Source: a virus
Length of the DNA: 25,564 nucleotides
Direction: 5' to 3' (one strand)
IMG/VR virus record: IMGVR_UViG_3300036859_000582
Span: 1 to 25,564 of that record
Shown: in pieces, positions 100 through 20,181 of the stretch
Position numbering within the stretch: the stretch's first letter is position 1
How the letters are laid out: every line of letters begins with the position of its first letter
Position numbers and translations under genes: made by a program
The notes under the pieces: model-generated
The model's database searches: none
Told to the model about the DNA's origin: nothing
Seen by the model: the letters and a program-made list of their open reading frames with translations, nothing else

Positions 100-1128
100 T
101 TAGAGGACGGAGGCCTTGAGCGAAGCGTTCACCCGGTGCGGCACGAGCAGCGGTGCCGACTGGGTCATGATGAACCGCCGCGCGGGGTCCTCTTCCTCCC
201 AGCTCTTCGAGAAGAAGGGCAGCGCCTGGTAGCCCGCCTTGGAATCCAGGACCGCGCCGAAGTAGCGCGCCCCGTCGAGGCCGGCCTCACCCGGGGTCGT
301 CATGATGACCGTCCCGTTGGCGAGGAACTTCTGCGTCGCGCCGGCGTCGTCCTGGTAGCGGTCCTGGTACACGAAGATGTTGAAGCCATCGATCGTGCCC
401 TTGAAGCTCCCGCCGATCTCGGTCAGGGCGCCGAGGTCGATCTCGCCGCCACGAGCATTCCGCACGTCGAGGCGGCCCTGCACCGTGGCGTGCTTGCGGA
501 ACGCCTTCCAGGCCCCGATGTCCATGACGACATCGATCGCGGCCGCGCCCGACTTGTCCACGATCAGGTCGGCCCAGTCCTGGAGGTCGTCCAGCGGGAA
601 GGACGTGCCCGCCGCGCTCCAGAGCGCGCCGCCCGCCAGCGTCACCGTGAGCGCCGCGTCGCGCGCGAAGCTCACGTTCACGGTCGGGTACTTCTCGCCC
701 GAGATCGTGACCGCACCGGCCTTGAGGATCTCGGAGGCCATCCACTCCAGCCGCCGCTGGATCATCTGCCGGTGATTCTCGAGCTCCTGGGCGATCAGGG
801 CCTGCATCCGCTGCTCGGGCGAGAGGGAGCCGGCGATGGCCTCCCCGATGACTCGCTTGAGCGGGCGCAGCGGATCGAACGCCGTCTTCGGCTTGATGTA
901 CGCGGGCTTCACCGTGTCCGTGGTGTAGCCCTGCTCCTCCACGATCTGGCCTTCGACCACGGGCGACACGAACGGCGCGAGTTTCCGCGACCGCCCGGCT
1001 TTGTCGAAGTGGATTTCCTCCGACTGCTCCGTGATTTCGACGCCGAAGTACCGGCTCGAGAGGAACCCCGACGGGATGAACAGGTTGTTCACCACGCGCG
1101 TCAGGATGTTCGTCGAGAACAGGTCCAT
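100..1128 (-). CDS. E: major capsid protein, lambda gpE family
   Basis: This encodes the main shell protein of the virion, 342 aa, almost the same length as lambda gpE (341 aa). The N-terminus (MDLFSTNILTRVVNNLF), the FVSPVVEGQ segment near residue 53, the long mid helix around residues 105-135 and the C-terminal SAPLLVPHRVNA strand are typical of the phage major capsid E family. The ATG is preceded by a perfect AGGAGG (1141-1136) with a 7-base spacer, as expected for a highly expressed gene. It follows the decoration protein gene, the same order as lambda D-E. Assignment is from recognised family features and gene order; no structure was modelled. Confidence 0.92.
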   Translation of the reverse strand: MDLFSTNILTRVVNNLFIPSGFLSSRYFGVEITEQSEEIHFDKAGRSRKLAPFVSPVVEGQIVEEQGYTTDTVKPAYIKPKTAFDPLRPLKRVIGEAIAGSLSPEQRMQALIAQELENHRQMIQRRLEWMASEILKAGAVTISGEKYPTVNVSFARDAALTVTLAGGALWSAAGTSFPLDDLQDWADLIVDKSGAAAIDVVMDIGAWKAFRKHATVQGRLDVRNARGGEIDLGALTEIGGSFKGTIDGFNIFVYQDRYQDDAGATQKFLANGTVIMTTPGEAGLDGARYFGAVLDSKAGYQALPFFSKSWEEEDPARRFIMTQSAPLLVPHRVNASLKASVL

Positions 1129-1203: not shown

Positions 1204-1575
1204 TTACGGGTTCAGCGCCTTCCGCAGCACGATGCCCTTGCCGCGCAGGCCCTCACGGACCGTGTCGACCGTGTGCGCCGCGCCGAGGGTGACCTCCGTC
1301 TCGTTGAAGCCGCCGCGGAAGTGCGCGACGGTGACCTTGTCCGCCGCCGTGGCGTCGGTCGCCTCCGCGAGAATGGCGTCGGGCGTCTGCGACCCATCGA
1401 CCGCCGCCGAGAGGGAGAGGTTGTACTTCCCGGACGCCGTGATTTTCCCGAGCAGCGCCCCGCGGGCCAGGTTCTGCCCGGTGATCAGGGTGATCTGCCG
1501 GCTCTCGAGCGGGTCCGGGCCGGTGACCAGCTTGTCCGGCGTGAACGCCGACGAGCTGTAGGAGGCAGGAGGCAT
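1204..1575 (-). CDS. D: head decoration protein, lambda gpD family
   Basis: This 123-aa protein belongs to the head decoration protein family (lambda gpD, 110 aa), which trimerises on the outside of the expanded capsid and stabilises it. Visible family features are the LITGQNLARGALLGKITASG segment (about residues 30-49), which is the conserved core, a ...GKYNLSLSAAVDGSQTPDAILA stretch with the typical late strand pattern, and the C-terminal region ending in GIVLRKAL. The ATG is preceded by a GGAGA-type ribosome-binding site. It lies between the S49 protease/scaffold gene and the capsid gene, exactly the lambda order C-Nu3-D-E. Confidence 0.9.
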   Translation of the reverse strand: MPPASYSSSAFTPDKLVTGPDPLESRQITLITGQNLARGALLGKITASGKYNLSLSAAVDGSQTPDAILAEATDATAADKVTVAHFRGGFNETEVTLGAAHTVDTVREGLRGKGIVLRKALNP

Positions 1576-1625: not shown

Positions 1626-2051
1626 TCAGTTGCCCCGACCGAGCGCGGGTTGGCCCCGCATGGCGCGATGCAGCCCGATGATCTCGGCCGCGGCCGTCGC
1701 CTCGTCGGCGCCACCGGCGTCGCCGCTGATCACCGGCGCCGGGGCGTCCAGGGCGGCCTCGTCCGCACGCAGGCTGCCGAGCTTCGCCTTCGACTTCTGC
1801 TTCTGCGCTTCCGCCTGGAGCACGGCGAAAGCCTCCACCGTGGTGCCGTCCGCTTTGGCCTTCGCGGCGAGCTGCTCGTAGCTCGGCAGTGCCAGCGCAG
1901 TGATCCGCTCGATCCGTTGGCGCTCGGCTTCCGCGCCCTCGCGGCGGAGCTGCGCGGGATCGGCGACGCTGGGAACCGGGGCGGGAGCGGGGGCCGCCGC
2001 CACCGGCGGAACGGTCGGTGCGGCTGGCGTGTCGGCGTTCTGAGCTGACAT
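1626..2051 (-). CDS. Nu3: nested in-frame scaffold protein, lambda Nu3-like
   Basis: Inside the protease gene, in the same frame, an ATG at 2051-2049 (Met287 of the protease) is preceded by GAGGAG at 2064-2059 with a 7-base spacer, a strong ribosome-binding site buried in coding sequence. Translation from it gives 141 aa: an Ala/Pro-rich linker, then a charged helical stretch (about residues 30-95) rich in Glu, Arg, Lys and Gln and without a hydrophobic core, as expected of a scaffold. In lambda the scaffold Nu3 is made the same way from within C. The start signal is seen in the sequence; the role is inferred by analogy. Confidence 0.65.
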   Translation of the reverse strand: MSAQNADTPAAPTVPPVAAAPAPAPVPSVADPAQLRREGAEAERQRIERITALALPSYEQLAAKAKADGTTVEAFAVLQAEAQKQKSKAKLGSLRADEAALDAPAPVISGDAGGADEATAAAEIIGLHRAMRGQPALGRGN

Positions 2052-2909
2052 GATGGGGCTCCTCATCGGATTGTTCAGGGTTTCGCTGAACTTCTGGAGC
2101 GTGCCGCGAATCGTCCCTACCTCATCGGCCAACCGTGCGCTGACGCTCGCCTGGCCGACGAACACGCCGGCATCTGTCGCCCGCACAGCAGCGGCTGAAA
2201 GCCCGCGGTACGTGGCAACCGCGTTGACGAAGAGGTCGTAGAAGCTCGTCACGTACGAGACGAGCGCCTTCTCCTCGTCGGAGCCGGGCTTCCACGGCTG
2301 GACCTGTGACCCATCCAGCTTGCGCGCGCCGGCGGCGATCTGAATCACCTGGATGCCCTCGGCATCCAGCGCCTTGGTGACGTCGAACCGATTGAGCACC
2401 ACGCCGATCGAGCCGGTCGTCGCCTCTTGGCTCGTGAAGAACCGCTGCGTGGCGCAACCCAGCAGATAGGCTGCCGAACAGGCCTGTGCCGCGGCGATAC
2501 CCCAGATCGGCTTCTCCACCTGGCGGATCCGCTGTGCGAGGTCGAACACGCCGCCGACTTCGCCACCCGGGGAGTCGAGCCGCAGCAGGATGCCACGGAT
2601 AGAGGCATCAGCCGCCGCGGCCTCGATCTCACTCGTCAGCTGCTCGTAGCTGAGCAAGGGCGCGGAGTCGGCATCCATTTGGCCAGCCCGATTCACCAGC
2701 ACCCCGCTCACATCGATGAGCGCGATGCCATTCTCCACCTGCAGGCCTTCGCGCCGTGCGGGCCGCATCTCACCAACGCCCCGCAGGTCGGGAAGCACCA
2801 TCGTGCCCAGGATGCGGCTGGCGAGGTAGTGGGCGATGATCCGTCCCTTGGTGGGTTCGATCATCAACGGCTGATCGAAGGCGAGGGCCGCGATGTGCTG
2901 ATATCTCAC
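1626..2909 (-). CDS. C: S49-family head maturation protease, lambda gpC-like
   Basis: This is a 427-aa SppA/S49 serine protease of the phage head-maturation type (lambda gpC, 439 aa), expected to act inside the procapsid and degrade scaffold. Residues 108-120 (LLRLDSPGGEVGG) form the glycine-rich oxyanion loop. The likely nucleophile is Ser145 in QACSAAYLLG and the likely general base is Lys197 in GARKLDG; the 52-residue spacing matches lambda gpC. The C-terminal third (from about residue 287) is Ala/Pro-rich then helical and charged, like a scaffold domain, and has its own internal start (listed separately). The GTG start overlaps the portal stop codon (GTGA), implying translational coupling. 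Confidence 0.9.
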   Translation of the reverse strand: MRYQHIAALAFDQPLMIEPTKGRIIAHYLASRILGTMVLPDLRGVGEMRPARREGLQVENGIALIDVSGVLVNRAGQMDADSAPLLSYEQLTSEIEAAAADASIRGILLRLDSPGGEVGGVFDLAQRIRQVEKPIWGIAAAQACSAAYLLGCATQRFFTSQEATTGSIGVVLNRFDVTKALDAEGIQVIQIAAGARKLDGSQVQPWKPGSDEEKALVSYVTSFYDLFVNAVATYRGLSAAAVRATDAGVFVGQASVSARLADEVGTIRGTLQKFSETLNNPMRSPIMSAQNADTPAAPTVPPVAAAPAPAPVPSVADPAQLRREGAEAERQRIERITALALPSYEQLAAKAKADGTTVEAFAVLQAEAQKQKSKAKLGSLRADEAALDAPAPVISGDAGGADEATAAAEIIGLHRAMRGQPALGRGN

Positions 2910-4570
2910 GCGTTGGCCTCCGCGAGCTCGCGCTGCTCAGCGGCATCGGCGGCATCGGGTGAGTCGTCTGGGAGCGTGTCGGCAGGCGGGGCGCCGGCGG
3001 GCAGCGCCTTCGGCGCACCCGACTCGAGGCCAGCCGCGAGCCGCATCCGATGCTCCTTGGCGCGCTGGACGTGCACTTCTTCCCAGTCCATCCCCGTCAG
3101 CTCTGCGGTCTCACGCTCGACGGTGGACACGCCGATCGCGATGCGCTTCTCGGCCCCGCGCGCTTCCTTCTCGGGGTCGATCTGGCCTTGTGCGGTACCG
3201 ACCCATTCGCTCCCCAGCCAGGCCGCCCGGACGACTGGGTCGTCGAAGCCAGGGGCTTCGATCATCCCGCGCGCGATCGCTTCGACGATGACCCACTCGT
3301 AGCAGGGCTGGCAGAAATCCTGCGCAATCCACGCGCGGCGCGTGCGGTACATCTTCCACGCCTCGAGCAGCGCGGCCCGCGCGGCGGAGTAGCTGGACTG
3401 GAAGTGCTTGATCAGCACCTCGAACGGCAGCTCGAGCCCGACGCCGATCTGCCGATAGACCGAGAGCACGAACGCATCGAACACGCTGTTCGGGCGCTTG
3501 GGCTCCACGACGCTGACGTCCTCACCGGGCAGGAGCCCGACGACGCTGCCCTCGCCGAGCTTGATTTCGTCGGCCTTCAGCCCTTCGTCGGGATCGCCCG
3601 TTCCCGCGAGCTGCGCACCCGCTTCATCGGCGTCGGACTTGATGAACACGGTGAGCAGGGCGTTGATCACCGCAGCCGTGATCTCTGCCTCGGTGTAGCG
3701 GTCGAGCTGCTTCAGGGGTTCGATGACGGGGGCGAGCAACGGCACGCCGCGCACCTGCCCGGGGCGCATGCGCCGATAGACCAGCTTCGCGATGAGATCG
3801 TTCGACGTCTTGCCGCGCGCGGGGACCTGGCTCCAGTTCGTACTCTTCCGCATGAAGCCGAACGCAAAGAAGTCACCCGGGTGCGTGTTCCGGACCCAGT
3901 ACCCGGTGGGGGCGCCGTTCCCGTCGACCGCGACACCCGCCGCGAGGCGCTCGCTGTCCATCTGGAGATTGGGATTCGAGACCCGGTCGCCCTCGATCAA
4001 CTGCACCTTCGTCCCGAGCACGTCGCCCTGTCGCTCCTGGAAGCGACGCACCAGGAGCACGTCACCCGACTCCAGGGCCGAACGGAAGGCGAGATCCTGG
4101 AGCCCGGCAAACGATTGCTCGCGTGTGATGTCGCAGTTGCGGCTGCTGGCCCACGCCCAAAAGATCATCTCGACGCGACGTTCCCAGTCATTCGCCTCGT
4201 CGTCGGTCAAGCCCAGGAGGTCGCGGTCCACGTGCGCATGGAGCTGGAGCCCCGTGCCGATCACGTTGGTGACGATCGTGTTGTGCGCACCGGCGGCGAG
4301 CGGCGTGTTGCGGATGAGGTCCCGCGAACGGGCCCGCAGCGTCGGGAGGTCGAGTAGGGTGTCGGCGTTCGCGCTGCCCGCGGCAGGATTCCAGTTCCGC
4401 ATCGATCGACGATCGCTGCGGCCGCCAACGTACCCGGACATGAGCGAGATGCCGGCGCGTGCGCGCAGCCGCCGGAGGGCGGTGGCAGGGCTCAGGTACC
4501 CGATGACCCGGTCCAGCGCCGTTGGCTGGACCTGCAGATGCGCGGCGAGGTTCGAGAGATTGACGCTCAC
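2906..4570 (-). CDS. B: portal protein, lambda gpB family
   Basis: This 554-aa protein is the lambda-family portal (gpB, 533 aa), the dodecameric ring at the DNA-entry vertex that binds terminase and the head-tail connector. Recognisable features are the N-terminal Arg-rich segment followed by LRARSRDLIRNTPLAAGAHN (about residues 78-97), the VGLELPFEVLIKHFQSSYSA region (about residues 375-394) and the AALLEAWKMYRTRRAWIAQDFCQPCYEW stretch that is diagnostic of this family. A disordered Ala/Pro/Asp tail ends the protein. The GTG start overlaps the gpW stop (GTGA), and the end overlaps the protease start, so gpW, portal and protease are translationally coupled. Confidence 0.92.
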   Translation of the reverse strand: MSVNLSNLAAHLQVQPTALDRVIGYLSPATALRRLRARAGISLMSGYVGGRSDRRSMRNWNPAAGSANADTLLDLPTLRARSRDLIRNTPLAAGAHNTIVTNVIGTGLQLHAHVDRDLLGLTDDEANDWERRVEMIFWAWASSRNCDITREQSFAGLQDLAFRSALESGDVLLVRRFQERQGDVLGTKVQLIEGDRVSNPNLQMDSERLAAGVAVDGNGAPTGYWVRNTHPGDFFAFGFMRKSTNWSQVPARGKTSNDLIAKLVYRRMRPGQVRGVPLLAPVIEPLKQLDRYTEAEITAAVINALLTVFIKSDADEAGAQLAGTGDPDEGLKADEIKLGEGSVVGLLPGEDVSVVEPKRPNSVFDAFVLSVYRQIGVGLELPFEVLIKHFQSSYSAARAALLEAWKMYRTRRAWIAQDFCQPCYEWVIVEAIARGMIEAPGFDDPVVRAAWLGSEWVGTAQGQIDPEKEARGAEKRIAIGVSTVERETAELTGMDWEEVHVQRAKEHRMRLAAGLESGAPKALPAGAPPADTLPDDSPDAADAAEQRELAEANA

Positions 4571-4776
4571 TCGGGCACCACCGTCATCACACGGACGCCG
4601 CCGCGCGTTTCGCGATCGACGAGCCGACGCAGCCGCGCCTCGCGACGGTACAGTGCCGGGAGCTCCGCACGACCGAGCGTGCGGTTGTTGACGGTGACGG
4701 TCTGCCCCCGCAGCTCGATCGCTTCGATCGCGGCCTGTACCGACTCGAGCTGTTGCGTGTAGGTCTTCGTCGCCAT
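4567..4776 (-). CDS. W: head-tail connector protein, gpW-like
   Basis: This 69-aa protein has the size (lambda gpW is 68 aa), position (between large terminase and portal) and composition of gpW, the small head-completion protein needed for tail attachment. It begins MATKTYTQQLESVQAAIEAI, an amphipathic helix, followed by a short strand pair (GQTVTVNNRTL) and a second helix rich in Arg (about residues 36-56), matching the alpha-beta-beta-alpha layout of gpW. The ATG was chosen because GGGAG lies just upstream and the DNA immediately before it is a terminator hairpin (4789-4827), so the longer upstream frame is not coding. Confidence 0.8.
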   Translation of the reverse strand: MATKTYTQQLESVQAAIEAIELRGQTVTVNNRTLGRAELPALYRREARLRRLVDRETRGGVRVMTVVPE

Positions 4777-4788
4777 CGAACTCCCGGG

Positions 4789-4827
4789 AAAAGAAAAACG
4801 GGGACGATCCGCAATGGATCGCCCCCG
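4789..4827 (-). terminator. strong rho-independent terminator in the gpW leader
   Basis: Minus-strand reading gives a 12-bp stem (4827-4816 paired with 4810-4799, one G-T pair) with a 5-base ATTGC loop, followed directly by TTTTTCTTTT (4798-4789). This is a textbook intrinsic terminator. It ends only 12 bases before the gpW start codon and downstream of a promoter-like sequence, so it may both end terminase transcripts and attenuate the head operon. Confidence 0.88.
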
Positions 4828-4870
4828 TGGGCTAGACGTCGCTGTCGCACCAGGTTGGCGCGCTGCCCTT

Positions 4871-4898
4871 AATTTAGGGGTCCTGCCGTGCAGGTCAA
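4871..4898 (-). promoter_or_regulatory. sigma70-like promoter for the head operon
   Basis: Just after the terminase stop codon the minus strand reads TTGACC (4898-4893, 5 of 6 matches to the -35 consensus), a 16-base spacer and TAAATT (4876-4871, 4 of 6 to the -10 consensus). The AT-rich -10 is striking in such GC-rich DNA. Transcription would begin near 4864 and pass through about 35 bases before meeting the terminator hairpin at 4827-4789. Host sigma-factor preferences are unknown. Confidence 0.55.
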
Positions 4899-4900
4899 GC

Positions 4901-6883
4901 CTACTCGACGCCTTTCGACAGCACCCGCCGACCCCGACGCACGGCCGGGGGCGCGGCACCCTCACCCCGCTGGAGCCGTGCCGCTAGCTCGCCGAGCGAG
5001 GCACGGACGGTCGGCCCGAGGATGTAGAGCGCCGCGAGCGCATAGACGGCGCAGTCGAGCGCCTCATTCCGCTGCCCCGGACGGAGCTCCCACCGGCGCA
5101 CCGGCCGCCGGTTGATGTAGCGGATCCGGGCGGTCTCCGCCGCGAGTTGCTGGAAGTAGTCCTCCGGCAGATGCCAGGGGAAATGCACGTGCCGGGGGCC
5201 GGCGCTCAGGACGGCAAGGCGCGCAAACAGGGAATCCTTGAGGGCGTCCGTGCCGAGGGGGAAATGCCGCATCCCCGGCCAGCCCGGCATCGCCGACATC
5301 TTCCCGATCGCCTGGGCGCCGGGCACGCTGATCCCCTTGATGGAGAACACATTCATCCGCCGGCGCGCCTGGCAGAACGCATAGACCTCGTCGGTGTGGT
5401 GACCGCCCGAGTCGATGCACGTCGCGCTGATCCGGACCTTCGCCCCCGCCTCGTGGTCGAAGTCATGCCCGAGCAGGAGGTCGAGCCGATTCCAGACGTC
5501 CGCCTCGACGGGGTTCCCGACGAACACCTCGTGGTTGATCACGTAGGCTTGCTCCTCGTGGGCCCAGCCCCAGACGCTCGCCTCGAGCCGATCACCCTGG
5601 ACGTCGACGCCGCACGTGAGTACACCCACCGGCGAAGGCACATCCGCGGCCCACCGCGTACGCCGTGCCGCGAGGACCTGGTGGTCGAGCTGCATCTCGG
5701 TGTCCTCCCATTCCTCGCCAAGCACCGTGTTGACGAAGGCCTTCAACGCCCGCCGATCGCCCTGCGCGTTGATCCATTCCTCGACGAGCCGCGACCAGGT
5801 GACGAACGGCGAATAGCCTGCCCAGATGAAGTAGCCGCGCACCGTCCGGTCTGGATAGCGCGCGCGCCACTCCCCGCGCTCGAGCATGACGTTCTTGTGA
5901 TGTTCCTCGATCGACTTCCCGCAGCCGGCGGTCCGCGTGATCGTCCCGTCGGCGTGCCGCTCGTAATCGCCACACTGATAGACCACGGTCGAGGCGTCGC
6001 GTTCCTGCCATTCGAGATTGTCCCACTTGAGCGTCTGCATGTAGCCGCAGTGGGGGCAGGGCACGAAGTACTCGCGCTGATCCGACCGCTCGTGTTCACG
6101 ACTGATGCGCGAGACGCCCTTCTCGGTCGGTGTCGATTCGAGATAGATCTTCCGCGACCGGACGTTCTGCGACCGCCGGATCGCCAGGGAGAGCGGGTCG
6201 CCTTCCTTGGCCGTGCCGCCCTTGGCCTCCAGCGCGAACCCGTCCACCTCGCTGCAGAGGACGTTGGCGATCGATCGCCGGCGCAGCCCGGCGGCGGCGT
6301 TGGACCCCATGATCGCGAGCAACCCGCGCCCACCGGCGAACAGTTTCACCTGGATCGTGCTGCCCTTGGCGCGCCGGCCGCTGTCGGAGTCTCGGACCCG
6401 TCCCCGTAAGCACCGGGTGTCCCGGAGCATGGGGTCGAGCGTCTCCTTCGACCAGCCCTTCGCCTCGTCGACGGTGGGCAGCACCACCATCGTGGACCGG
6501 GGGCGGAGGTGGATCACGTAACCGAGGAAGTTGTTGAGCACCTCAGTCCCGCCAACGCGTCCGGACTTCTTGAAAACGACGCGCTCCACCCGCGGGTTGC
6601 TGAGCGAGTCCATGATCTCGGTGAGGTAGGGCACCCGGCGATTGCGCCACGGCCCGGGCTCCTCAGGGTTGTGCTCCGCGGAGACGTACCGCTCGGTTTC
6701 AGCCCATTCCGAGCAGGTGAGGTTGGGCTGCGCGGCGAAGATCCGCGCGCGCACCTCCCGCTCGACACGGCGTAGGTGGCGGTGTCCAGTGACGGTCGGT
6801 AGGCCCGCGACGATCGCGGCCGCGGTGACGGTCGCAGCGCGCCGGCGTGCAGCCCGATGGGGGTGGCGGGGAGCCACAATCAT
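4901..6883 (-). CDS. A: terminase large subunit, GpA family
   Basis: This 660-aa protein is the ATPase-nuclease motor that cuts and packages phage DNA. The N-terminal ATPase shows a GpA-type Walker A variant, KSGRVGGTE (residues 106-114), in which the lysine precedes the loop as in lambda gpA, and a Walker B VLCSEVD (208-214). A zinc-ribbon-like set of cysteines (C276, C279, C304, C321) follows. The nuclease domain begins at CGVDVQGDRLE (424-434), with the first catalytic Asp, and continues through CIDSGGHHTDEVY. The family C-terminal RNEALDCAVYALAA is present. The ATG overlaps the small-subunit stop (ATGA). The gene ends before an intergenic promoter and terminator. Confidence 0.95.
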   Translation of the reverse strand: MIVAPRHPHRAARRRAATVTAAAIVAGLPTVTGHRHLRRVEREVRARIFAAQPNLTCSEWAETERYVSAEHNPEEPGPWRNRRVPYLTEIMDSLSNPRVERVVFKKSGRVGGTEVLNNFLGYVIHLRPRSTMVVLPTVDEAKGWSKETLDPMLRDTRCLRGRVRDSDSGRRAKGSTIQVKLFAGGRGLLAIMGSNAAAGLRRRSIANVLCSEVDGFALEAKGGTAKEGDPLSLAIRRSQNVRSRKIYLESTPTEKGVSRISREHERSDQREYFVPCPHCGYMQTLKWDNLEWQERDASTVVYQCGDYERHADGTITRTAGCGKSIEEHHKNVMLERGEWRARYPDRTVRGYFIWAGYSPFVTWSRLVEEWINAQGDRRALKAFVNTVLGEEWEDTEMQLDHQVLAARRTRWAADVPSPVGVLTCGVDVQGDRLEASVWGWAHEEQAYVINHEVFVGNPVEADVWNRLDLLLGHDFDHEAGAKVRISATCIDSGGHHTDEVYAFCQARRRMNVFSIKGISVPGAQAIGKMSAMPGWPGMRHFPLGTDALKDSLFARLAVLSAGPRHVHFPWHLPEDYFQQLAAETARIRYINRRPVRRWELRPGQRNEALDCAVYALAALYILGPTVRASLGELAARLQRGEGAAPPAVRRGRRVLSKGVE

Positions 6884-7491
6884 CCGGCGGCCAGCTCCTG
6901 GTCTTCGGGCACGTCATCGCCAGCCTCGAGCTCCGCCATCTGGTCCTGCATCATGCGCCGGATGAACTCCTCGGCGCGGATCAGGTCGTCGGCACGGAGC
7001 CGTTCAGGAAAGGCAGCGAGCAGCTGCGGGGCGTACCGACCGGGCGCGTTGAGTTGATGCGCGACCATCCGCGAACAGGCAGCTTCGAACTCCTGGCGAA
7101 AGAGCGCCGCTGGCATCAGCGCGCCGCGGCGTTCGGCGACCTCCATCTCTCGCAGATCCGCGTCAGCGGCCAGCTTCCGGGCGCGCGCCTCCTCGACGGA
7201 CCCAGGGCGGACCGACGCCACCCCCTGCTGGATGAGGTTCTTGTCGCGCCACTCACGCAGCTCGGGCCACAAGAACATCCGGTCCCTACCGTGCCCAACG
7301 GTAGGCACGTCGCGGTGTTCGGCGATGTACTGCTGGAGCCGACGCGGGGTGAGACCGAGGCGGGCGGCAGCCACCGCGATCGGCAGGCGCTCACGCTCGA
7401 GGTGGCCGGTTGTAGCCGGTGCAGGACGGCGCGCGCTGCTCTTCGACCGTGGTTTCGAGCGGTGGCGCCGGTGCTGCGACCGCTTGGTCAT
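6880..7491 (-). CDS. Nu1: terminase small subunit, Nu1-like
   Basis: This 203-aa protein likely recognises the packaging site and recruits the large subunit. After a basic N-terminus (about 28 residues rich in Arg/Lys/Ser) it has a winged-helix domain (about residues 36-85: LPIAVAAARLGLTPRRLQQYI then FLWPELREWRD), like the Nu1/MerR-type fold. Next is a long helical region (EEARARKLAADADLREMEVAERRGALM) typical of Nu1-like terminases, ending in an acidic tail. It lies directly before the large subunit with a 4-base ATGA overlap. The ATG also overlaps the stop of the preceding HTH gene. Confidence 0.85.
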   Translation of the reverse strand: MTKRSQHRRHRSKPRSKSSARRPAPATTGHLERERLPIAVAAARLGLTPRRLQQYIAEHRDVPTVGHGRDRMFLWPELREWRDKNLIQQGVASVRPGSVEEARARKLAADADLREMEVAERRGALMPAALFRQEFEAACSRMVAHQLNAPGRYAPQLLAAFPERLRADDLIRAEEFIRRMMQDQMAELEAGDDVPEDQELAAG

Positions 7492-8114
7492 GAATCGCGA
7501 AACCGAAATCGCATTTCAGCGGGCCCGGTATATGCGTCCACCGAGCTGGCGCGGCACCCGCGGCCATCCTGTGTGTCAGAAGGACCCGCGTTTTTATTCC
7601 GTGAGAGATTCAGGACGCGGTAGCGCGGTGGATCAGTCAGCATGATGCGTCCCCCACCGTTTGGCGTTTCCAGCGAACCGGCCTTGCTCGCGTTGGCGGC
7701 GAGCCAGCTGCGCGTACCGTTGGCGATGAGCCGGTCACTAACCGCCATGGTCGGACAGTCTGACATTGGCACCGGGATGAAGCGGTTCAACTCGGCTGAC
7801 CAGATGCGCGCTGGTGATTGCTTGTGAACGCTCGTAAGCCCACAGCAGCGCAGCCACTTTGATATCGCCGAGGTGCTCAATCCGAACCCATTAGCGAGAT
7901 CAGACACGCCATAGCCCTGTCCAACCAACGATTCAAGCGACGCTGCTAAGTGCGGGACTCTCTCAAAGGCGGCAATACACCCTGTGCGACCACGTACGTA
8001 TTGCGGTCCAGCAATAGCCAGCCAATGCCGGCGTAGGATGGCGCGTTCTGCCCGAGTCAGAACAGCATCCCCACGCAGGTTAGGCACGACAGGTCTCGCC
8101 TTGTTCGCCCTCAC
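7488..8114 (-). CDS. HTH protein of lower GC, function unknown
   Basis: A 208-aa protein I cannot assign to a family. Residues about 66-94 (GQGYGVSDLANGFGLSTSAISKWLRCCGL) form a clear helix-turn-helix; the N-terminus is basic and the C-terminal third looks disordered and Ser/Arg/Asn-rich. The DNA has noticeably lower GC than its neighbours (sampled 60-base stretches of 55-60% versus about 70-75% in adjacent genes), suggesting recent acquisition. Its GTG start overlaps the stop of the minor-tail gene (GTGA) and its stop overlaps the terminase small-subunit start, so it is neatly embedded in the late operon. It could be a regulator or the DNA-binding remnant of a homing endonuclease; no nuclease motif was found. 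Confidence 0.6.
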   Translation of the reverse strand: MRANKARPVVPNLRGDAVLTRAERAILRRHWLAIAGPQYVRGRTGCIAAFERVPHLAASLESLVGQGYGVSDLANGFGLSTSAISKWLRCCGLTSVHKQSPARIWSAELNRFIPVPMSDCPTMAVSDRLIANGTRSWLAANASKAGSLETPNGGGRIMLTDPPRYRVLNLSRNKNAGPSDTQDGRGCRASSVDAYTGPAEMRFRFRDS

Positions 8115-8804: not shown

Positions 8805-11042
8805 TCAGTCCTTCAGGTGCTGCACGACGCCGAATCGGCGCACGCGACGGGCCTGCACGTCCACGTCCGTGACAATGGGGCAGGTGACTTGAGGCCGCGT
8901 CCCGAAGCGCGCGGCCGAGAAGGGACCGATCAGGCGCTCGCCCGCAGCAGGCACCTCAACCGTGTGGGCCTGACGCTGGAGCGCGGGAGCAATCCGTGGG
9001 ATCGTGATCGTGATCACGCCTGAGCCCGCGTTCCGTACGTGCAGGTAGACTCTGCCGTCATTCCGGAACCTCATCAGCAACGCAGCGGGGCGAAATGCGG
9101 GCGCAACGCCATCCAGGTACAGATCATAGACGGTCAGCTCAGCATACGGCTCTCCCGCCGTAGCCACCGTGAGGTCGGCCGCGCTCACGGCTTCGCCGAG
9201 TACCGATCCTTCGAACGTAATGGCGGTGAGCAGCTCGCCCGCTGCGACGGCCGCGCCTGTCACAGTGCCCTCGAACTGGATCACGGTCGTGAGGCCAGCC
9301 GCGACGGTGGCGCTCCCCAGGACCGACGCCTGAAACTCTGCCAGGCCGCTGACGGTCAGATCGCCCGTAGCGACAGCGGGCGCGAGCAAGCTGCCGGCGA
9401 GCTGAATGGCGGTCGTGAGGGCACCGCTGGTCGTCCCTGTAGCGGCGCAGGCCCCTGCCAACGCGATCTCGGTAGTGAGGCTACCGCTAGCAGTCGCAGT
9501 GGCCGTCACCGCACCCGCCAGCTGGATTTCTGTGCTGAGGGCGCCCACCGCAGACGCGGACCCCGTCACGGCGGCCGCGCACTCGATCGCCGTCGCCAAC
9601 GCCCCCGCAGCACTCGCCGTCCCGCTGAGCGACGCCTCAAAGAGCGCCTGCTGCGGCGCGGTGAGCTCGGCGACAACGGTCGCACTCCCCAGGGCCGCGG
9701 CGGCGAGCGGAATCTCCGTCGTCAGGGCAGCGGCGACCGTCGCGCTGCCCGTCGCCGCGGCCGCCATCTGGATTTCTGTCGAGAGGGAGGCGGCCGCGCT
9801 GGCGGATGTGCTCACCGCAGCTGCCATCTCGATGGCCGTGGTCAGCGCACCAGCGATGATCGCAGAACCCACCACAGCCGCCTCGAACTCGGCGGCAGCG
9901 CCGAACGCGACGCTGTTGACCGCATTGCCCGCGAGGACAGTGCTGGCCCGCCGCCACGCCACATAGAAGCGGTCGCCCATGATCGGCGCCCACGTTTGGA
10001 GCACCACGGCCGCCGCGCCCTCCATGTACGCCGTGTCTCCCGACGACCACGTGGTGCCGTCGTCCGTGGACTTGGTGTAGTAGACCTTCGTGGCCGTATC
10101 AAGCGTCTCCGACCCGTCCCGCTTGCCGTTGTACGCCACGTAGAGATCGTTGGTGGCCTGGTGGATGAACACCGATGGGTAATAGTGGTCTTCGCTGTCG
10201 GTGGCGATGTTGGTCAACGCGGTGATGGAGCCCGTGCCGTTGACGTCGAACACGCGGTGATCCTCAGAGATCCCGCGCCCAGTCAATGCCGCGATGACCA
10301 GATGCCCATCGCTGTGCCGAATGGAGGCGGAAAAAGGGTACTGCCCAGTGAGATCCGTGGAAAGTTCAACCACCCCCATGATGGTCGCGGACTCCGACCA
10401 CGAGTCCGCCGAGTTGTCGTACGCCTTCAGCGTCAGCGCGTTGGCGTCGGCGTCGAAGTAGACCGCCCAGATGTCCTGATTGTCCGCGGCATTGCCGGGG
10501 AATAGCATCGACCAATCCCCAACCGCCTCCACCGCCACCGCGCGCGCCCCGAACGTGGCGCCCCCGTCCACCGACCGGGAGAAGAAGCGTTCCGCCCCGG
10601 CGTCGATCTGCCCGGAGACGTAGAGATTGCCGCCGACCGCCTTGGTGATGGAGGCGTGGACGCCGATCCCGGCGGCGGTGCTCGTGCCGGTGAAGACGGT
10701 GACCTGCGTGCCGAGGGTGTCGTTGCTGGTGTCGAGTGAGACGTATTGCGGGTCGTCGTCGCCCTGATCCACCCACACGATGTGGATCTTGGTGCCAGTG
10801 GTGTCGCCCGGCGTCCACCGGTCGTACCAGACGTCGAACCAGTCGACGGTGGTCGTGATATCGGTATCGATCTCGACCGCGCCGCTCCACGACGCGCCGC
10901 CGTCCGTGGTCTTGATGTAGAAGAAGTCGGCGTCGCCGTCGATGAAGAAGCAGTAGCCGACGTCCGCGCTGACGAACACCAGCGACCGCATCCCGCGCGC
11001 GGTCGCGGTGCCGATGGCAGCATCAATGCTTACGTCGGCCAT
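8805..11042 (-). CDS. virion protein: Asp-box domain, twelve 20-aa repeats, beta-sandwich-like C-terminus
   Basis: This 745-aa protein has three parts. Residues 1-380 contain Asp-box (BNR) signatures TTDGGASW (45-52), SVDGGATF (157-164) and STDDGTTW (325-332), as in sialidase-like beta-propellers; the sialidase catalytic residues were not identified. Residues 385-628 consist of twelve 20-residue repeats of the type xxAAAxxGSATVAAALTTEI, two of them followed by a 2-residue insertion. Residues 630-745 (YLHVRNAGSGVITITIP, GERLIGPFSAARF) look like a small beta-sandwich domain often found alone in phage structural loci. It sits between a Gp80-like tail protein and a minor tail protein, so it is probably a virion surface or tail appendage that touches host glycans; that role is inference. 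Confidence 0.7.
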   Translation of the reverse strand: MADVSIDAAIGTATARGMRSLVFVSADVGYCFFIDGDADFFYIKTTDGGASWSGAVEIDTDITTTVDWFDVWYDRWTPGDTTGTKIHIVWVDQGDDDPQYVSLDTSNDTLGTQVTVFTGTSTAAGIGVHASITKAVGGNLYVSGQIDAGAERFFSRSVDGGATFGARAVAVEAVGDWSMLFPGNAADNQDIWAVYFDADANALTLKAYDNSADSWSESATIMGVVELSTDLTGQYPFSASIRHSDGHLVIAALTGRGISEDHRVFDVNGTGSITALTNIATDSEDHYYPSVFIHQATNDLYVAYNGKRDGSETLDTATKVYYTKSTDDGTTWSSGDTAYMEGAAAVVLQTWAPIMGDRFYVAWRRASTVLAGNAVNSVAFGAAAEFEAAVVGSAIIAGALTTAIEMAAAVSTSASAAASLSTEIQMAAAATGSATVAAALTTEIPLAAAALGSATVVAELTAPQQALFEASLSGTASAAGALATAIECAAAVTGSASAVGALSTEIQLAGAVTATATASGSLTTEIALAGACAATGTTSGALTTAIQLAGSLLAPAVATGDLTVSGLAEFQASVLGSATVAAGLTTVIQFEGTVTGAAVAAGELLTAITFEGSVLGEAVSAADLTVATAGEPYAELTVYDLYLDGVAPAFRPAALLMRFRNDGRVYLHVRNAGSGVITITIPRIAPALQRQAHTVEVPAAGERLIGPFSAARFGTRPQVTCPIVTDVDVQARRVRRFGVVQHLKD
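9159..9890 (-). repeat. twelve tandem 60-bp coding repeats
   Basis: The DNA has a 60-base period across about 730 bases, encoding twelve 20-aa units of the large virion protein, with two 6-base insertions between units. Units have diverged at the DNA level (recurring motifs such as GGCGCTGACGACC vary), but the protein pattern Gly-Ser-Ala-Thr ... Leu-Thr-Thr-Glu-Ile is kept. The set may expand and contract by recombination. Confidence 0.85.
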
Positions 11043-14075: not shown

Positions 14076-14473
14076 GACGGGCGTCCCATGTGTGCGAGCA
14101 CCTCGTCGATGGCGCATCGCGCTGACGCATCCATGCGCCAGCGCGGCACGACCCGCGAAGGTCTGCGGGCGAGGATCTGCGGGCCGAGACCTGTGGCCTG
14201 CAGGATGCTGCGGCGGCGAGGCCGGGCAGACGCGCGCGCAACCGCGTCGCTGATCTGTCGGCTGATGCGGTCAGCCTCTTCGAACTCGGCGAGACGACGG
14301 AGGCGCTCCGGATCAGGTGCCGAGTTGATGGTGGCCGAGTACCTGAACCGTTGCAATGGCGGACCGTGACCCGTCAGCAACCAGAACCCGAATGCGAGGA
14401 CGCAGGCGACGGCACCGCAGACTATCCAGAGCACCACGATCAAGGCGCGAGCGACGAATGCAAGCACCGTCAC
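14072..14473 (-). CDS. single-pass membrane protein, function unknown
   Basis: A 133-aa protein with one long hydrophobic helix at residues 4-34 (VLAFVARALIVVLWIVCGAVACVLAFGFWLL) and a basic, Arg-rich tail likely facing the cytoplasm. It has no lipobox, and its size and single helix do not clearly match a holin or spanin. It is translationally coupled (GTGA) to the helicase-methyltransferase gene upstream, an odd context for a lysis protein. Confidence 0.6.
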   Translation of the reverse strand: MTVLAFVARALIVVLWIVCGAVACVLAFGFWLLTGHGPPLQRFRYSATINSAPDPERLRRLAEFEEADRISRQISDAVARASARPRRRSILQATGLGPQILARRPSRVVPRWRMDASARCAIDEVLAHMGRPS

Positions 14474-16989
14474 GAGGCCGCCTCGCTCCGGGCTTCGTCC
14501 AGCTCAAGCATTTCGAAGAGCGTGGGCACCGGCCGGTTGGCCGCCGCCTCGACCACGTACCGCGCGCCATCCCGGAAGTACGTCGGGCTCAGCTCAATCC
14601 CGATCGCGCGCCGCTTGAGCGCGACCGCCCGGTAGGGGACCGTCATCAAGCCGGCGAAGGGATCGAACACCGTTTCGCCGGGCATGGAGAGCTGCGTGAT
14701 TAGCCGGTCGACGAGGTCAAATTGGATCGGGCACAAATGCATCTCGCGCCCCTTCGCCTCCTGCATCGTGTTCAGCGTCCGCATCCGGGCGACGTCGGTC
14801 CAGACGTCCGGGTGCCAGCTGTGCGGCGGCAGGAGCATGAAGGTCACCGGCAGCCGGCGCCCCTGCTCCAACGCCTCCTGGAGCTTGGCGTGATGATCGG
14901 CGTCGTAGGGATGGCTCAGCGAGTACCGCTTGAACAGCCGATACATCACGTCATGCGCCAGGCCCTCCAGATCCTCGGGCGCGAGCAGGCGGTTGCCGTT
15001 CGACCGCTGGAAGGCGTGCGCGTCGATCTGCCACCGCCCAAGGGAATAGCTGTCCTTCGACTTCACGACCGGGATGTCGGCGTAGCCGTTCGAGCGATCG
15101 GTCGGCGGCTTCCGGAACAGCAGCAAGTACTCCGGCATGCCACAGCCCATCCGCGACCCGTCCCTGCACTGCTCGGTATAGCCCAGCCGGTAGGTCTGGT
15201 TGTTCTCTCGGACCACGTCGGTCACGATCGTCTTCATGCCAAGGTATCCGAAGCCGTGCCGCTGGTAGTGTGTGATGGCCTCGGCGTGGAGCGGGGCCAC
15301 CGTCTGGAACCCGAGCCCCAGCATCCCGCTCGGAACGATCCGGTCCTTGACGTGGATGACCATCACCCGCCCGGGCTCGAGCACGCGCAGCAGCTCGGGG
15401 GTGAGGAAGTCCATCTGCTCCCAGAACTCGGCGTGCGATTCCGAGTGCCCGAAGTCGTTGTAGGTGGGCGTGTACTCGTACTGGGTGGCGAATGGGATGC
15501 TGGTGACGATCAGGTCGACGCTATCCGACTCCAGCGTCCGCGTCTCCTCCACGCAGTCGTTCTGGATGAGCCGGTAGCCGTCGCCCTGGACCTCGAGGCG
15601 CTCGACACCGATCGCCCGCTGTAGCGCCTGCACCATCGAGGCCTGCGCGAGCCCGTACTCGCGCACGATCGCCCGCATCTGCTCGGTCTGCTCGTTGTAG
15701 CGCGCCCACTTCTCCTCGAGAATCTTCCGGATCGGTCGCTCGGCCTCGGAGTAGATCAGGTCGATGCGCACGCGCTTGGTCTGCAGGAAGCGGTGCAGGC
15801 GGTGAATCGCTTGGATGAAATCGTGAAACTTGAACCCGATGCCGAGGAACACCGCCCACGCGCAGAACCGCTGGAAGTTGCAACCGGCGCCGGCGAGCAC
15901 CGGCTTGGCGGCGAGCTCGGCGATCTTCCCGTCCGAGAACCGGATGACCGACGCCTCACGGGCGTCGAGGTCCTGGTTGCCGTAGACCGCCACCACGTCC
16001 GGGATCGCCGCCTGGATCGCCTCGCGTTCTGCCTCCAGGTCGTGCCAGATCAGCCGGTGGGCGCTCGGATCCTCGGCGCGCAGCTCCATCAGCTTCGCGA
16101 CCCGCGAGGGGAGACTGCCGCGCTTCTCGCGCGAGGCCTGGCTCACCCCGAGGCTCGCGTCCTGGAAGAGCCGCGCCTGGCCGTCGCGCTCGGGTGCGGC
16201 CGCGGCGTGATCGCTCGCCACCTCGTGCCAGCGCACATCCAGCTCGGGCAGGATGTAGCCGTGATCGGGGAAGCCGAGGTCCGACGGCCGGTAGAGAAAC
16301 AGCGCCCACGACGCCACCCAGAGCCAGAACTCCCGCTCCTTGTGCGGGTGCAGGGTCAGCTGGTCGGCCTTCGTCGAGTCGCGCTTGAACCACCGTGTCT
16401 TCGCCTGGCCCACATCCATCACGTCGAGGAAGGCGGCGTAGGCCAGCAGCTCGATGTATTCGTTGGGGTCGGGCGTGGCCGTGGCGACGAACCGGTACGT
16501 CGCCGTCCCCTCGAACACCCGCATGAACTCGCGGAAGGTCTTGGTGCCGCCGAACCCGCGCAGCACCGCCGCCTCGTCCAGGCTGACGACGGTGAAGCTG
16601 CGCGGGTCGAGCTTCTGGTCCCGCACGGTCTCGTAGTTGGTGAGGTAGATGCCGGCCGCACCCGCTTCCTCAATCCGGCGGATGAACGTCACCGTGAGGC
16701 CGAGCATCGTGGCGTCGCGCTTGAACTCCTGGCGCACGCCGAGCGGCAGCACGATCAGGCCGCGGCCGCCCGCCTTCTGCAGGATGAGCCGGACGATCTC
16801 GAGCTGGATGATGGTCTTGCCGAGGCCGAACGCCGCGAAGATCGCGCGCCGCCCACCCCGCAGGGCCCACAGCACGATCGCCACCTGGTGCGGCTTGAGC
16901 AGCGGATTCACCTCGTCGGCGGAGACCTCGAACCCGGTCGCCGTGGCGAGCTTCGCCTTCCGCTCAAGGAACGCGCGGTAGTCGGTCAC
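14470..16989 (-). CDS. SF2 helicase fused to an N-type DNA methyltransferase
   Basis: This 839-aa protein joins two enzymes. Residues 30-440 are a superfamily 2 helicase: Walker A AAFGLGKT (52-59), DEAA (138-141), TATP (170-173) and a C-terminal motif QAIHRLHRFLQTK (393-405), which departs from the canonical QxxGRxxR. Residues 470-820 are an amino-methyltransferase with the catalytic motif as TSIPF (496-500) in place of the usual DPPY/SPPY, and the SAM-binding motif FDPFAG (775-780) with IGIELS (796-801) near the end, giving the catalytic-then-SAM order of beta-class enzymes. It may methylate phage DNA while translocating. Target base and site cannot be read from the sequence. Confidence 0.85.
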   Translation of the reverse strand: MTDYRAFLERKAKLATATGFEVSADEVNPLLKPHQVAIVLWALRGGRRAIFAAFGLGKTIIQLEIVRLILQKAGGRGLIVLPLGVRQEFKRDATMLGLTVTFIRRIEEAGAAGIYLTNYETVRDQKLDPRSFTVVSLDEAAVLRGFGGTKTFREFMRVFEGTATYRFVATATPDPNEYIELLAYAAFLDVMDVGQAKTRWFKRDSTKADQLTLHPHKEREFWLWVASWALFLYRPSDLGFPDHGYILPELDVRWHEVASDHAAAAPERDGQARLFQDASLGVSQASREKRGSLPSRVAKLMELRAEDPSAHRLIWHDLEAEREAIQAAIPDVVAVYGNQDLDAREASVIRFSDGKIAELAAKPVLAGAGCNFQRFCAWAVFLGIGFKFHDFIQAIHRLHRFLQTKRVRIDLIYSEAERPIRKILEEKWARYNEQTEQMRAIVREYGLAQASMVQALQRAIGVERLEVQGDGYRLIQNDCVEETRTLESDSVDLIVTSIPFATQYEYTPTYNDFGHSESHAEFWEQMDFLTPELLRVLEPGRVMVIHVKDRIVPSGMLGLGFQTVAPLHAEAITHYQRHGFGYLGMKTIVTDVVRENNQTYRLGYTEQCRDGSRMGCGMPEYLLLFRKPPTDRSNGYADIPVVKSKDSYSLGRWQIDAHAFQRSNGNRLLAPEDLEGLAHDVMYRLFKRYSLSHPYDADHHAKLQEALEQGRRLPVTFMLLPPHSWHPDVWTDVARMRTLNTMQEAKGREMHLCPIQFDLVDRLITQLSMPGETVFDPFAGLMTVPYRAVALKRRAIGIELSPTYFRDGARYVVEAAANRPVPTLFEMLELDEARSEAAS

Positions 16990-17524: not shown

Positions 17525-19191
17525 GCGGCCAGTCCTCGCTGCTCCAAGTACGCGGCGGCGAGCCGTCGCACGTGCCCGCCATCGAGCGCGAGCTTCTCGA
17601 TCAGCTCCGCGTGCGGGTCCCGGATCGCCTCACTCTGCTGCCGCTTGATGCCGTTGATGTCGGCGACGACCGGGTCGGAGCCAGCATCGGCGAGGAGGAA
17701 GTAGGCGAGGACCGGCTCGTCCTGGCCATCACGGTGGATGCGGCCAATGCATTGCTCGTGCACGCCCGGGCTCCAGTCGAGTTCCCCGAACACGACGGTG
17801 CGGCACACCTGCTGGAGGCCGTCGAGGCCCATGCCCGCGCGCAGCGAGACGATCAACACCTTCGAGTCGCCCGCGACGAATGCCTGCTTCGAGGCGTCCT
17901 TCTCGTTCGGCGACTCGTCGCCCGTGTAGAACACCGGTTTCAAGTCGTCTAACTCGTCCCGCCAGACCGCGTACACGGCCTTGTGCCAGCCGTAGAGGAC
18001 AACCTTCCCCTCGCTCTCGCAGAGCAGGCGGACGAACGCGGCGACGTGCGGGGCCTTGGCCACGCCGGTGGCCTGGCGCAGCAGCATGCTCAGCTCCTCG
18101 GACGCGTGGAGCTTCTGACCCCGGAAGGCCTCGCCCTGCCTGAGGATGGTCCGCGCCAGCTCAGCGGCGGTGACGCTCACCGCCTCGAGCGCGTGGGGGT
18201 CGGCATCGATCTCGTGCACCACCCGCGTGACCTCGGGTAGCTCCCGCCCCACGTCCTTGCGGGTGCGGCGGAGCATCAGCCCCTGATCGCGGAGGTAGCT
18301 CCCGAACGCCTTAGGGTCATCGATCTTCGCCTTATCACCCCAGTCGCCGCGGTTGCACCACTCGCGACCGAACTCCTGCCGGCTGCCCAGCGCGTCGGGC
18401 GCAATGCAGCTCATCACGGCGTACATCTCGGAGCCATAGTTGTAGATCGGGGTTGCGGAGAGGCCCAGGCGGTAGCGCGCATTGGCCGCCAGGTGGGCCG
18501 CCGCCGAGTACTTCTGGGACTCGGTCCGTCGCAGCTCCTGTACCTCGTCGAACACGACCGTCTTGATCACGGGCGCCAGGACGTCGGCCCACCCGCCGAG
18601 CTTGTGGTAGCTGCTCACGATCACATCGGGGAACGGCTCGATGGGGTAGGGGCTCCCGCGCTTCAGGATGTGGGCGCGAAGCCCGGGCGCGAACTTCGCC
18701 AGCTCGGCTACCCACTGCCGCTGCAGGTGGGTCAGCGCGACGACCAACGCCGGCCGGGTGGATGGGTCGGTGAGCGCCGCGATCGCGAGCGCCGTCTTGC
18801 CGAGTCCCACGTCGTCGGCGCACAACAGATGGCCGGAGCGGAGCAGCATCTCGGCGGCCAGCGCCTGGTAGTCGCGCGGCGGCAGGGCCATGGTGAAGGC
18901 GCGCGGCACGATCACCGAGTCGAGAACCTGGCGGATTGTCAGCTGCCGCTCGTCGTACGCCTCGGCCTGCGCGCGTAGGTACTCCCTCGCGTCCTCTGGC
19001 ATGTCCATCGGGAACCGCTGGAGGAACCACAGCAGCTCGCGGCAATTCTCCAGCGTGTCGCTCAGGAAGAGGAAGTCGTGACCGCGCTTGTCGATGCGCT
19101 CGAACACCCGCTTCAGCCGGAGGCGCACCTGCGGCTGCGTCTTGATGATCCAGACGCCGCTGTTGTTGCGGTGGACGGTGCCGTAGCTCAC
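17521..19191 (-). CDS. SNF2-family DEAD-like helicase
   Basis: This 556-aa protein is an SNF2-type superfamily 2 ATPase that remodels or unwinds DNA. Motifs in order: the Q-motif-like LPPRDYQALAAEMLLRSG (103-120), Walker A DDVGLGKT (126-133), Walker B DEVQ (215-218), SATP (245-248) and the C-terminal motif QCIGRIHRDGQ (480-490), the standard SNF2 arginine-finger motif. A 100-residue N-terminal region resembles the HARP-like or accessory part of phage SNF2 helicases. It is coupled (GTGA) to the truncated cytosine methyltransferase upstream, and these may work together in DNA modification or replication. Confidence 0.9.
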   Translation of the reverse strand: MSYGTVHRNNSGVWIIKTQPQVRLRLKRVFERIDKRGHDFLFLSDTLENCRELLWFLQRFPMDMPEDAREYLRAQAEAYDERQLTIRQVLDSVIVPRAFTMALPPRDYQALAAEMLLRSGHLLCADDVGLGKTALAIAALTDPSTRPALVVALTHLQRQWVAELAKFAPGLRAHILKRGSPYPIEPFPDVIVSSYHKLGGWADVLAPVIKTVVFDEVQELRRTESQKYSAAAHLAANARYRLGLSATPIYNYGSEMYAVMSCIAPDALGSRQEFGREWCNRGDWGDKAKIDDPKAFGSYLRDQGLMLRRTRKDVGRELPEVTRVVHEIDADPHALEAVSVTAAELARTILRQGEAFRGQKLHASEELSMLLRQATGVAKAPHVAAFVRLLCESEGKVVLYGWHKAVYAVWRDELDDLKPVFYTGDESPNEKDASKQAFVAGDSKVLIVSLRAGMGLDGLQQVCRTVVFGELDWSPGVHEQCIGRIHRDGQDEPVLAYFLLADAGSDPVVADINGIKRQQSEAIRDPHAELIEKLALDGGHVRRLAAAYLEQRGLAA

Positions 19192-20180
19192 TGGAGACCG
19201 CCCATCAGCGGCACCACGGTGACGCTCTTACCGAGGATCTCGCTCGGCTGGCGGGCGAGCTGCCGCCGATCGGTGACGAGCACCACCGGCCGGACGCGGC
19301 CGCTGTCGGTGGTCATGTTCGTCCGCACGACCAGCGCCATGCGACCATACTTGTCGAGGCCGTACCGAATCCGCTCAAGCGTGCGGGGCCGGAGCGGGCG
19401 TTTCCGATCACCGATTCGCTCAGCCGGGAGGCTCAGATCGATCGCGTTCAGGCCGGCGTAGTAGAACGGGACCACCTCGGTGCGGCAGCCGGGGCAGGTG
19501 TAGATGTACTGCTGCCGGTACTTGCCAGTCCGACGGTTATTCTTCCACGTCTGCCGCGACTCCACGACGCGCCCGCAGCCCGCGCACGGCGCCGGCGGCG
19601 TGTGATCCAGAAGCGGCGCGCGGTTCCCCTTCCGCCACAACACGATGTAGATGCGATCGCGCGACTGCGGTGTCGGGTGCGCGAACCGCGAATTGAGGGA
19701 GACGATCCGGTGCACATACCCGAGCTTGGCCATCGCCGCCAGCCACTCGGGGAACAGCTCCCACCGCGTCACCTCGATGACATTCTCGACGATGATCGCG
19801 TTGTAGCGGTGGTACTCGGCGAACCGCGGGACGTCCCACATGGTGGCACGCGATCGGATCGTCGCCGGGTCCTCAAGGTAGGGCCGGAAGATGTCACGCT
19901 GAGGCTGTGAGCGCCGACTCCCTCCCGCTGGCGAGTGCGTGGTGCACTCCGGGCTCGTGATCAGAATGTCGGTCGAGGGATAGCGCCGAGGATCCGCCGC
20001 GCTGACGTCCGTGCAGTCGTGATCGGTGTCCGGGAAGTTCGTGTTGTGGGTCTCGATCGCAAGTTTCCAGTGGTTCAGCGCCAGCCGTACCCGGATGCCC
20101 CGCGCCCGGGCGCCGAGGGAGGAACCGCCGGCGCCGCAGAACTGGTCCGTGCACGTGATGTCGGAGTTGCGCGGCGGCAT
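19188..20180 (-). CDS. C5-cytosine DNA methyltransferase, apparently lacking C-terminal motifs
   Basis: This 330-aa protein has motif I FCGAGGSSLG (14-23) for SAM binding, motif IV SPECTTHSPAG (76-86) with the catalytic Cys79, motif VI ENV (132-134) and motif VIII QSRDR (172-176). The middle carries CAGC (199-202) and CPGC (229-232), likely a zinc-binding part of the target-recognition region. The standard motifs IX (RExxRLQ) and X (GN-A/S-V), which normally close the SAM site, are not seen before the stop, so it is either truncated, a divergent form, or completed by another subunit. The ATG at 20180 is two bases after the preceding stop. Confidence 0.8.
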   Translation of the reverse strand: MPPRNSDITCTDQFCGAGGSSLGARARGIRVRLALNHWKLAIETHNTNFPDTDHDCTDVSAADPRRYPSTDILITSPECTTHSPAGGSRRSQPQRDIFRPYLEDPATIRSRATMWDVPRFAEYHRYNAIIVENVIEVTRWELFPEWLAAMAKLGYVHRIVSLNSRFAHPTPQSRDRIYIVLWRKGNRAPLLDHTPPAPCAGCGRVVESRQTWKNNRRTGKYRQQYIYTCPGCRTEVVPFYYAGLNAIDLSLPAERIGDRKRPLRPRTLERIRYGLDKYGRMALVVRTNMTTDSGRVRPVVLVTDRRQLARQPSEILGKSVTVVPLMGGLQ

Positions 20181-20181
20181 C

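Follow-up and report, generated by a model that had tools for sequence, protein, structure and literature searches.

The question raised by this locus is whether the short gap between the terminase and head genes of an uncultivated phage holds a control region for the head operon, or simply the end of the terminase message. To our knowledge, few phages have had the control of their late transcription worked out, and almost all of these infect cultivated Proteobacteria. The window, by which we denote the whole stretch of DNA analysed, is a linear phage record from IMG/VR of 25,564 bases and 67.7% G+C, and its main genes are all carried on the minus strand. Read along that strand, the gene for the large terminase subunit of the lambda gpA type (terL, 4901..6883; phrog_15, E 2.6e-216), which has its stop at 4901, is followed by a gap of 124 nt (4777-4900) and then by a gpW-like head completion gene of 69 aa (4567..4776, ATG at 4776), the portal gene (2906..4570; phrog_21, E 1.1e-126), and the genes for the head maturation protease (1626..2909; phrog_53), the head decoration protein (1204..1575; phrog_49) and the major head protein (100..1128; phrog_29). 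The gpW-like gene, which is gene 1 of the head operon, was assigned from its translation and from a gpW-family profile built from relatives.

Several other minus-strand genes of the window were noted in passing. A 745-aa protein with alanine-rich repeated segments, encoded among the structural genes (8805-11042), has no match in PHROG or Pfam. Modification of its DNA by the phage is likely, given a protein of 839 aa whose C-terminal part is an N4/N6 DNA methylase domain (14470-16989) and, farther upstream, a C5-cytosine methylase (19188-20264).

Anatomy of the terL-gpW gap

The first-pass annotation had read a promoter, a leader, a terminator and the gpW ribosome-binding site into the gap, and our reading agrees with it on all four and on where they lie. 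The promoter-like site consists of a -35 element TTGACC (4893..4898, minus strand), 3 nt past the terL stop, and a -10 element TAAATT (4871..4876, minus strand) across a 16-nt spacer, and spans 4898..4871. By consensus scan, it is the sole sigma70-like hexamer pair in 25.5 kb, against a chance expectation of 0.7 and 1.0 in the two halves; because about two such pairs are expected by chance in the whole window and one was found, the match taken alone is weak evidence. Scored with a weight matrix, which approximates E. coli sigma70 and may not suit the host, the same site tops both strands of the whole window at 13.6 bits, with the runner-up at 10.8.

Downstream lies an intrinsic terminator hairpin, ACGGGGGCGATCC-ATTGC-GGATCGTCCCCGT (4828..4798, minus strand; 13 pairs, 9 of them G-C; -25.4 kcal/mol), directly followed by the T-run TTTTCTTTT (4789..4797), so that the terminator ends at the ribosome-binding site of gpW, whose Shine-Dalgarno sequence GGGAG occupies 4781..4785. 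This hairpin is the top-ranked terminator of the whole window. The highest-scoring promoter-like site and the highest-scoring terminator in 25.5 kb thus share one gap of 124 bases, correctly ordered and on the proper strand, and it is unlikely that both maxima would meet in this way by chance. Between the hairpin and gpW, the weight matrix finds no promoter-like site above 9 bits, which agrees with the earlier remark that another promoter would not fit there.

With a start placed near 4864 on the basis of the -10 element, the presumed untranslated leader would cover about 36 nt (4829..4864, minus strand) and include a small predicted hairpin, CGCGCCA-acc-TGGTGCG (4862..4846). The hairpin and leader described at first as 12 bp and 35 bases therefore exist, but their sizes are 13 bp and about 36 nt. 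The 81-nt RNA of the gap has a folding z of -4.6. No Rfam match was obtained in the window, the exact hairpin sequence is absent from IMG/VR, and blastn of the gap against phages returned just one chance match of 37 bases. The initial transcribed region, AAGGGCAGCGCGCC, contains no obvious -10-like element. Between the -35 and -10 elements sits an inverted repeat, CCTGCacgGCAGG (CCTGC-ACG-GCAGG, 4882..4894, minus strand), which overlaps the end of the -35 element and the spacer. It is placed much as the elements bound by AlpA, GafZ and Q are, and one could conjecture that it is a regulator site; it is not conserved among relatives.

The same layout in relatives

To see how widely this arrangement occurs, relatives of terL, portal and gpW were collected from IMG/VR, GTDB genomes and a phage collection, and 298 non-redundant portal loci were screened, carriers among them being picked by their terminator and not by a promoter. 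In the majority of relatives the next gene comes close after terL, without a terminator, and among the isolated phages examined (AcaML1, CRP-823, Lily, phi3LM21, Cr-LKS3, vB_EalM-137 and others) the post-terL gene overlaps terL or comes shortly after it, or a strong terminator is missing from the gap. Strong terminators 165-344 nt ahead of the portal start, directly before gpW, are present in the window, L002, L012, L250, L254, L255, L270, L295, L310, L329, L359, L381, L382, L299 and L143, and pre-gpW terminators also occur in the prophages L457 and L460, which come from the phylum of a Gemmatimonadota genome. The hairpins of these carriers reach -20 to -38 kcal/mol with T-runs, and in all ten of the longer contigs tested at most one other terminator ranks above the pre-gpW hairpin. 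Hairpins of L405, L408, L428, L438, L449, L454, L455 and Pseudomonas phage KT1 were excluded, as each appears to lie within the coding end of terL.

The full order of promoter, leader, terminator and gpW is found in L002 (TTGAGC-16-CATATT), L012 (TTGCGC-17-CATATT), L250 (TTGCAT-17-TATCTT), L254 (TTTACC-17-TAAAAT), L270 (TTGCGT-17-CATATT), L310 (TTGACT-17-TAATAT), L382 (TTGACA-18-TAGGCT), L295 (TTGTCC-17-CATAAT), L457 (TTGCGT-18-TAAACT) and L460 (TTGCGG-17-TAGTTT), in sequences that cannot be aligned with one another. The hairpin sequences are likewise unrelated, and even the window and L002, whose terL proteins are 78% identical, have no convincingly alignable gap. At the level of sequence, the parts of the module, their order and their recurrence are established, and the module recurs by layout although its sequence has diverged beyond alignment.

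When promoter scores upstream of the hairpin were combined over 16 loci, they exceeded those of dinucleotide shuffles (Fisher p 6.6e-7) and of random windows of the loci's own contigs (p 3e-13), and the sense score was higher than the antisense score in 13 of the 16. Single loci can be weak: L381, L359 and L255 have weak, non-significant scores, and the site of L012 is non-significant against shuffles and ranks 45th in its contig. The hairpin starts 41-50 nt after the -10 element in 8/16 loci (p 0.0006, for an interval chosen after the fact), which is suggestive of a preferred promoter-to-hairpin spacing. In L143 and L299 the terminator lies 13-28 nt past the terL stop, too close for a promoter to fit, and these two loci show that the terminator may also act on transcripts coming from upstream.

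The first-pass annotation had proposed comparing the gap in related phages, and we placed the carriers on a portal tree. The tree is a quick one of 115 rows with long branches, so that exact placements are unsure; on it, ten carriers (the window, L381, L382, L012, L250, L270, L310, L002, L457 and L460) fall within one deep clade of 14, giving 10/14 members with promoter, leader, terminator and gpW. Two more have a promoter and a hairpin, namely L324 (TTGACA-18-TAACGT, p 0.002) and L401 (TTGACC-17-TATCCT, p 0.002), both with a strong hairpin and a poor T-run; having been missed by the terminator filter and found by reading the gaps of clade members, they provide a partly independent check. The remaining members are L396, which is weak (a hairpin without a T-run), and L003, which has no gap. 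Outside the clade are L254, L255, L295, L329 and the terminator-only L299.

Two of these outlying loci bear on the question of which gene the element belongs to. The terL gene ends about 3.0 kb ahead of gpW in L254 and about 4.6 kb ahead in L255, and both hairpins still lie directly before gpW. The element is thus part of the gpW/head operon, and not just the end of the terminase mRNA. The DNA upstream cannot be aligned between the two, homology starting abruptly at the leader hairpin CCCCGGCCTCATGAACCGG, and the promoter is not clearly conserved between them. We also observed that the 3-4.6 kb interval between terL and gpW in L254/L493 and L255/L494 contains few plus-strand ORFs, and that these two pairs are unalignable just upstream of gpW despite nearly equal portals.

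Some relatives depart from the layout in other ways. In L435 and L451, a strong terminator (GAGCCCCCCCC...GGGGGGGGCTTT) stands between gpW and the portal gene, not ahead of gpW. L319 has a perfect 22-bp palindrome, TTTGGCGAAACGTTTCGCCAAA, in the terminator's place at the 5' end of its terL-gpW gap, which could be a protein-binding site. In L472, L474, L477, L479 and L480, prophages from the same order of the Gemmatimonadota phylum, an apparent small helix-turn-helix gene right after terL replaces the promoter-terminator gap. The gpW gene itself also varies: those of L002 (2918-3238) and L012 (5530-5856) encode 106-108 aa that read as two tandem gpW-like repeats, with a similar look in L463, and that of the window corresponds to one copy.

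Readings of the gap

We give about even credence to the reading that the head operon is controlled from this gap, by a promoter whose transcripts are stopped at a nearby terminator until antitermination sets in. Under it, the sigma70-type promoter would fire early or constitutively, and RNA polymerase would meet the strong intrinsic terminator about 36 nt past the start and release an RNA of about 75 nt, such that little transcription would reach gpW, portal, protease and capsid genes while the terminator holds. At the proper stage, a factor encoded or recruited by the phage would load on the polymerase at the promoter or leader, and the loaded polymerase would read through the terminator, turning the head genes on. 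Three steps of this scheme are inferred, namely activity of the promoter, termination at the hairpin, and relief of the stop by an antiterminator.

The conditional switch suggested at the outset has thereby gained strong comparative support, the layout recurring in diverse relatives with unrelated sequences, but a search for the Q family, the only one sought, identified no antiterminator. Of the two forms of switch then proposed, antitermination fits the anatomy, and a factor loaded at the promoter would be the best match to it. Against it, PF06530 is absent at E<=1 from ten carrier contigs, which are mostly fragments, and no regulator gene common to the carriers was seen in these mostly fragmentary contigs. 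As a candidate antiterminator we considered the window's 208-aa protein with an HTH-like stretch (7488-8114, minus strand), encoded immediately upstream of the small terminase gene; it matches nothing in PHROG or Pfam and was rejected, having no relative in the other carriers. Attenuation by alternative leader folds, the other form, found no support. Only 0-11 of the 12-18 bases of the terminator arm pair with the leader, in a fold that is always weaker than the terminator, and because no leader segment can credibly sequester the terminator's 5' arm, a riboswitch-like attenuator with mutually exclusive leader hairpins is unlikely and was rejected. Two putative leader features were also dropped: a GACAAY motif in 5/13 leaders, since, over all 5-mers, 13.5% of shuffle sets yield one that is as widely shared (GACAA, p 0.135), and the first leader hairpin as a universal feature, which is clear just in L254/L255, L250 and a few others and departs from random only marginally overall (combined p 0.06 without L255).

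The main rival to antitermination is a small-RNA gene, in which a promoter, an RNA of ~60-90 nt and a terminator would act in trans, the head genes being transcribed by read-through from upstream. The predicted RNAs of the carriers, 63-109 nt long with strong terminators, do fit bacterial sRNAs, the one in the window has its own promoter and terminator and a length within 50-200 nt, and StxS, made from such a promoter-terminator pair, is a direct precedent (PMC7873438). However, that these RNAs cannot be aligned even between the window and L002, despite 78% identity in terL, argues against a conserved trans target, and the fixed place right before the gpW Shine-Dalgarno sequence suggests a role in cis. 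We therefore hold this reading to be unlikely, although it is compatible with antitermination and both may be true. It is rather improbable that promoter and terminator form a fixed, partly leaky attenuator setting a constant low level of head-gene transcription: this would require no regulatory factor, in keeping with none having been found by way of the Q family or a shared regulator gene, but hairpins of such strength followed by T-runs seem excessive for a tuning role, which a weaker promoter would fill more simply, and capsid genes must be expressed at a high level.

The fallback offered by the first-pass annotation, in which the hairpin does no more than end the terminase message and the promoter resemblance is fortuitous, draws on the hairpin of the window directly following terL and on L143 and L299, where it lies close past the terL stop without a promoter. 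It is disfavoured by the enrichment of promoters across carriers and by the hairpins of L254 and L255, linked to gpW and not to terL, and it would leave the head genes without a nearby promoter of their own, because nothing fits past the hairpin; we judge it very unlikely. Equally little credence goes to the hairpin serving, at the 5' end of the head mRNA, to stabilise or process that RNA. Its position immediately upstream of the Shine-Dalgarno sequence, the poor T-runs of L401 and L324 and the missing T-run of L396 would suit such a role, yet stability hairpins need no T-run, and runs such as that of the window follow the hairpin in most carriers.

A conditional switch is hence the best supported reading of these sequences, though unproven, and the observation is more general than a reading of a single sequence could tell. 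More tentatively, and with somewhat less than even confidence, we propose that a deep lineage of uncultivated phages, with prophages in the phylum of a Gemmatimonadota genome among its members, retains a head-operon switch conserved in layout and divergent in sequence, which would be run by a non-Q antiterminator or by the leader RNA itself. In such a lineage, a conserved promoter-terminator unit placed exactly where the head operon begins gives the search for new antiterminators a defined target of 124 bases. It also suggests promoter-proximal termination as a recurrent way to restrain capsid synthesis, and indicates that such modules can be recognised by layout when sequence alignment fails.

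Comparison with known systems

The pR'-tR' region of lambda lies upstream of the lysis genes and terminase. The window shares with the lambdoid arrangement a promoter followed by a near intrinsic terminator upstream of late genes, with a short terminated RNA predicted from sequence; it differs in that the module lies between terL and gpW, in that no Q-family gene occurs in the ten, mostly fragmentary, carrier contigs, and in that no clear -10-like pause element was noted in its initial transcribed region. In lambda and phage 21, Q loads at pR' and carries RNA polymerase past terminators (PMC6606751). In Stx phages, a stable regulatory sRNA, StxS, is made between the late promoter and tR' (PMC7873438), and the RNA predicted for the window would likewise be short and run from a late promoter to a promoter-proximal terminator.

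The alpB system of P. aeruginosa has a terminator that starts 54 nt after the transcription start, just upstream of gene 1, and AlpA binds between -35 and -10 (PMC7969949). The likeness to the window, with its 36-nt leader, a terminator adjoining gene 1 and an inverted repeat between -35 and -10, is evident, but the alpB system targets lysis genes whereas the module of the window fronts head genes, and the AlpA element GGGACGN5GGTA is absent from the window's spacer, TGCACGGCAGGACCCC. GafZ, which acts on the Caulobacter GTA, recognises a palindrome located between -10 and -35 and takes RNA polymerase past terminators (PMC11150451). In the GTA, too, a head and packaging cluster is under a promoter and antitermination (GafY/GafZ), and a palindrome in the promoter spacer is also present in the window; the terminator of the GTA, in contrast, consists of three 150-bp repeats downstream of gene 1 (PMC11150451), compared with a single hairpin ahead of gene 1 in the window. 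Control by a promoter-proximal terminator is thus already known from lambda, alpB and the Caulobacter GTA, and what would be new here is its place before gpW and the head operon, and a layout that is kept without the sequence.
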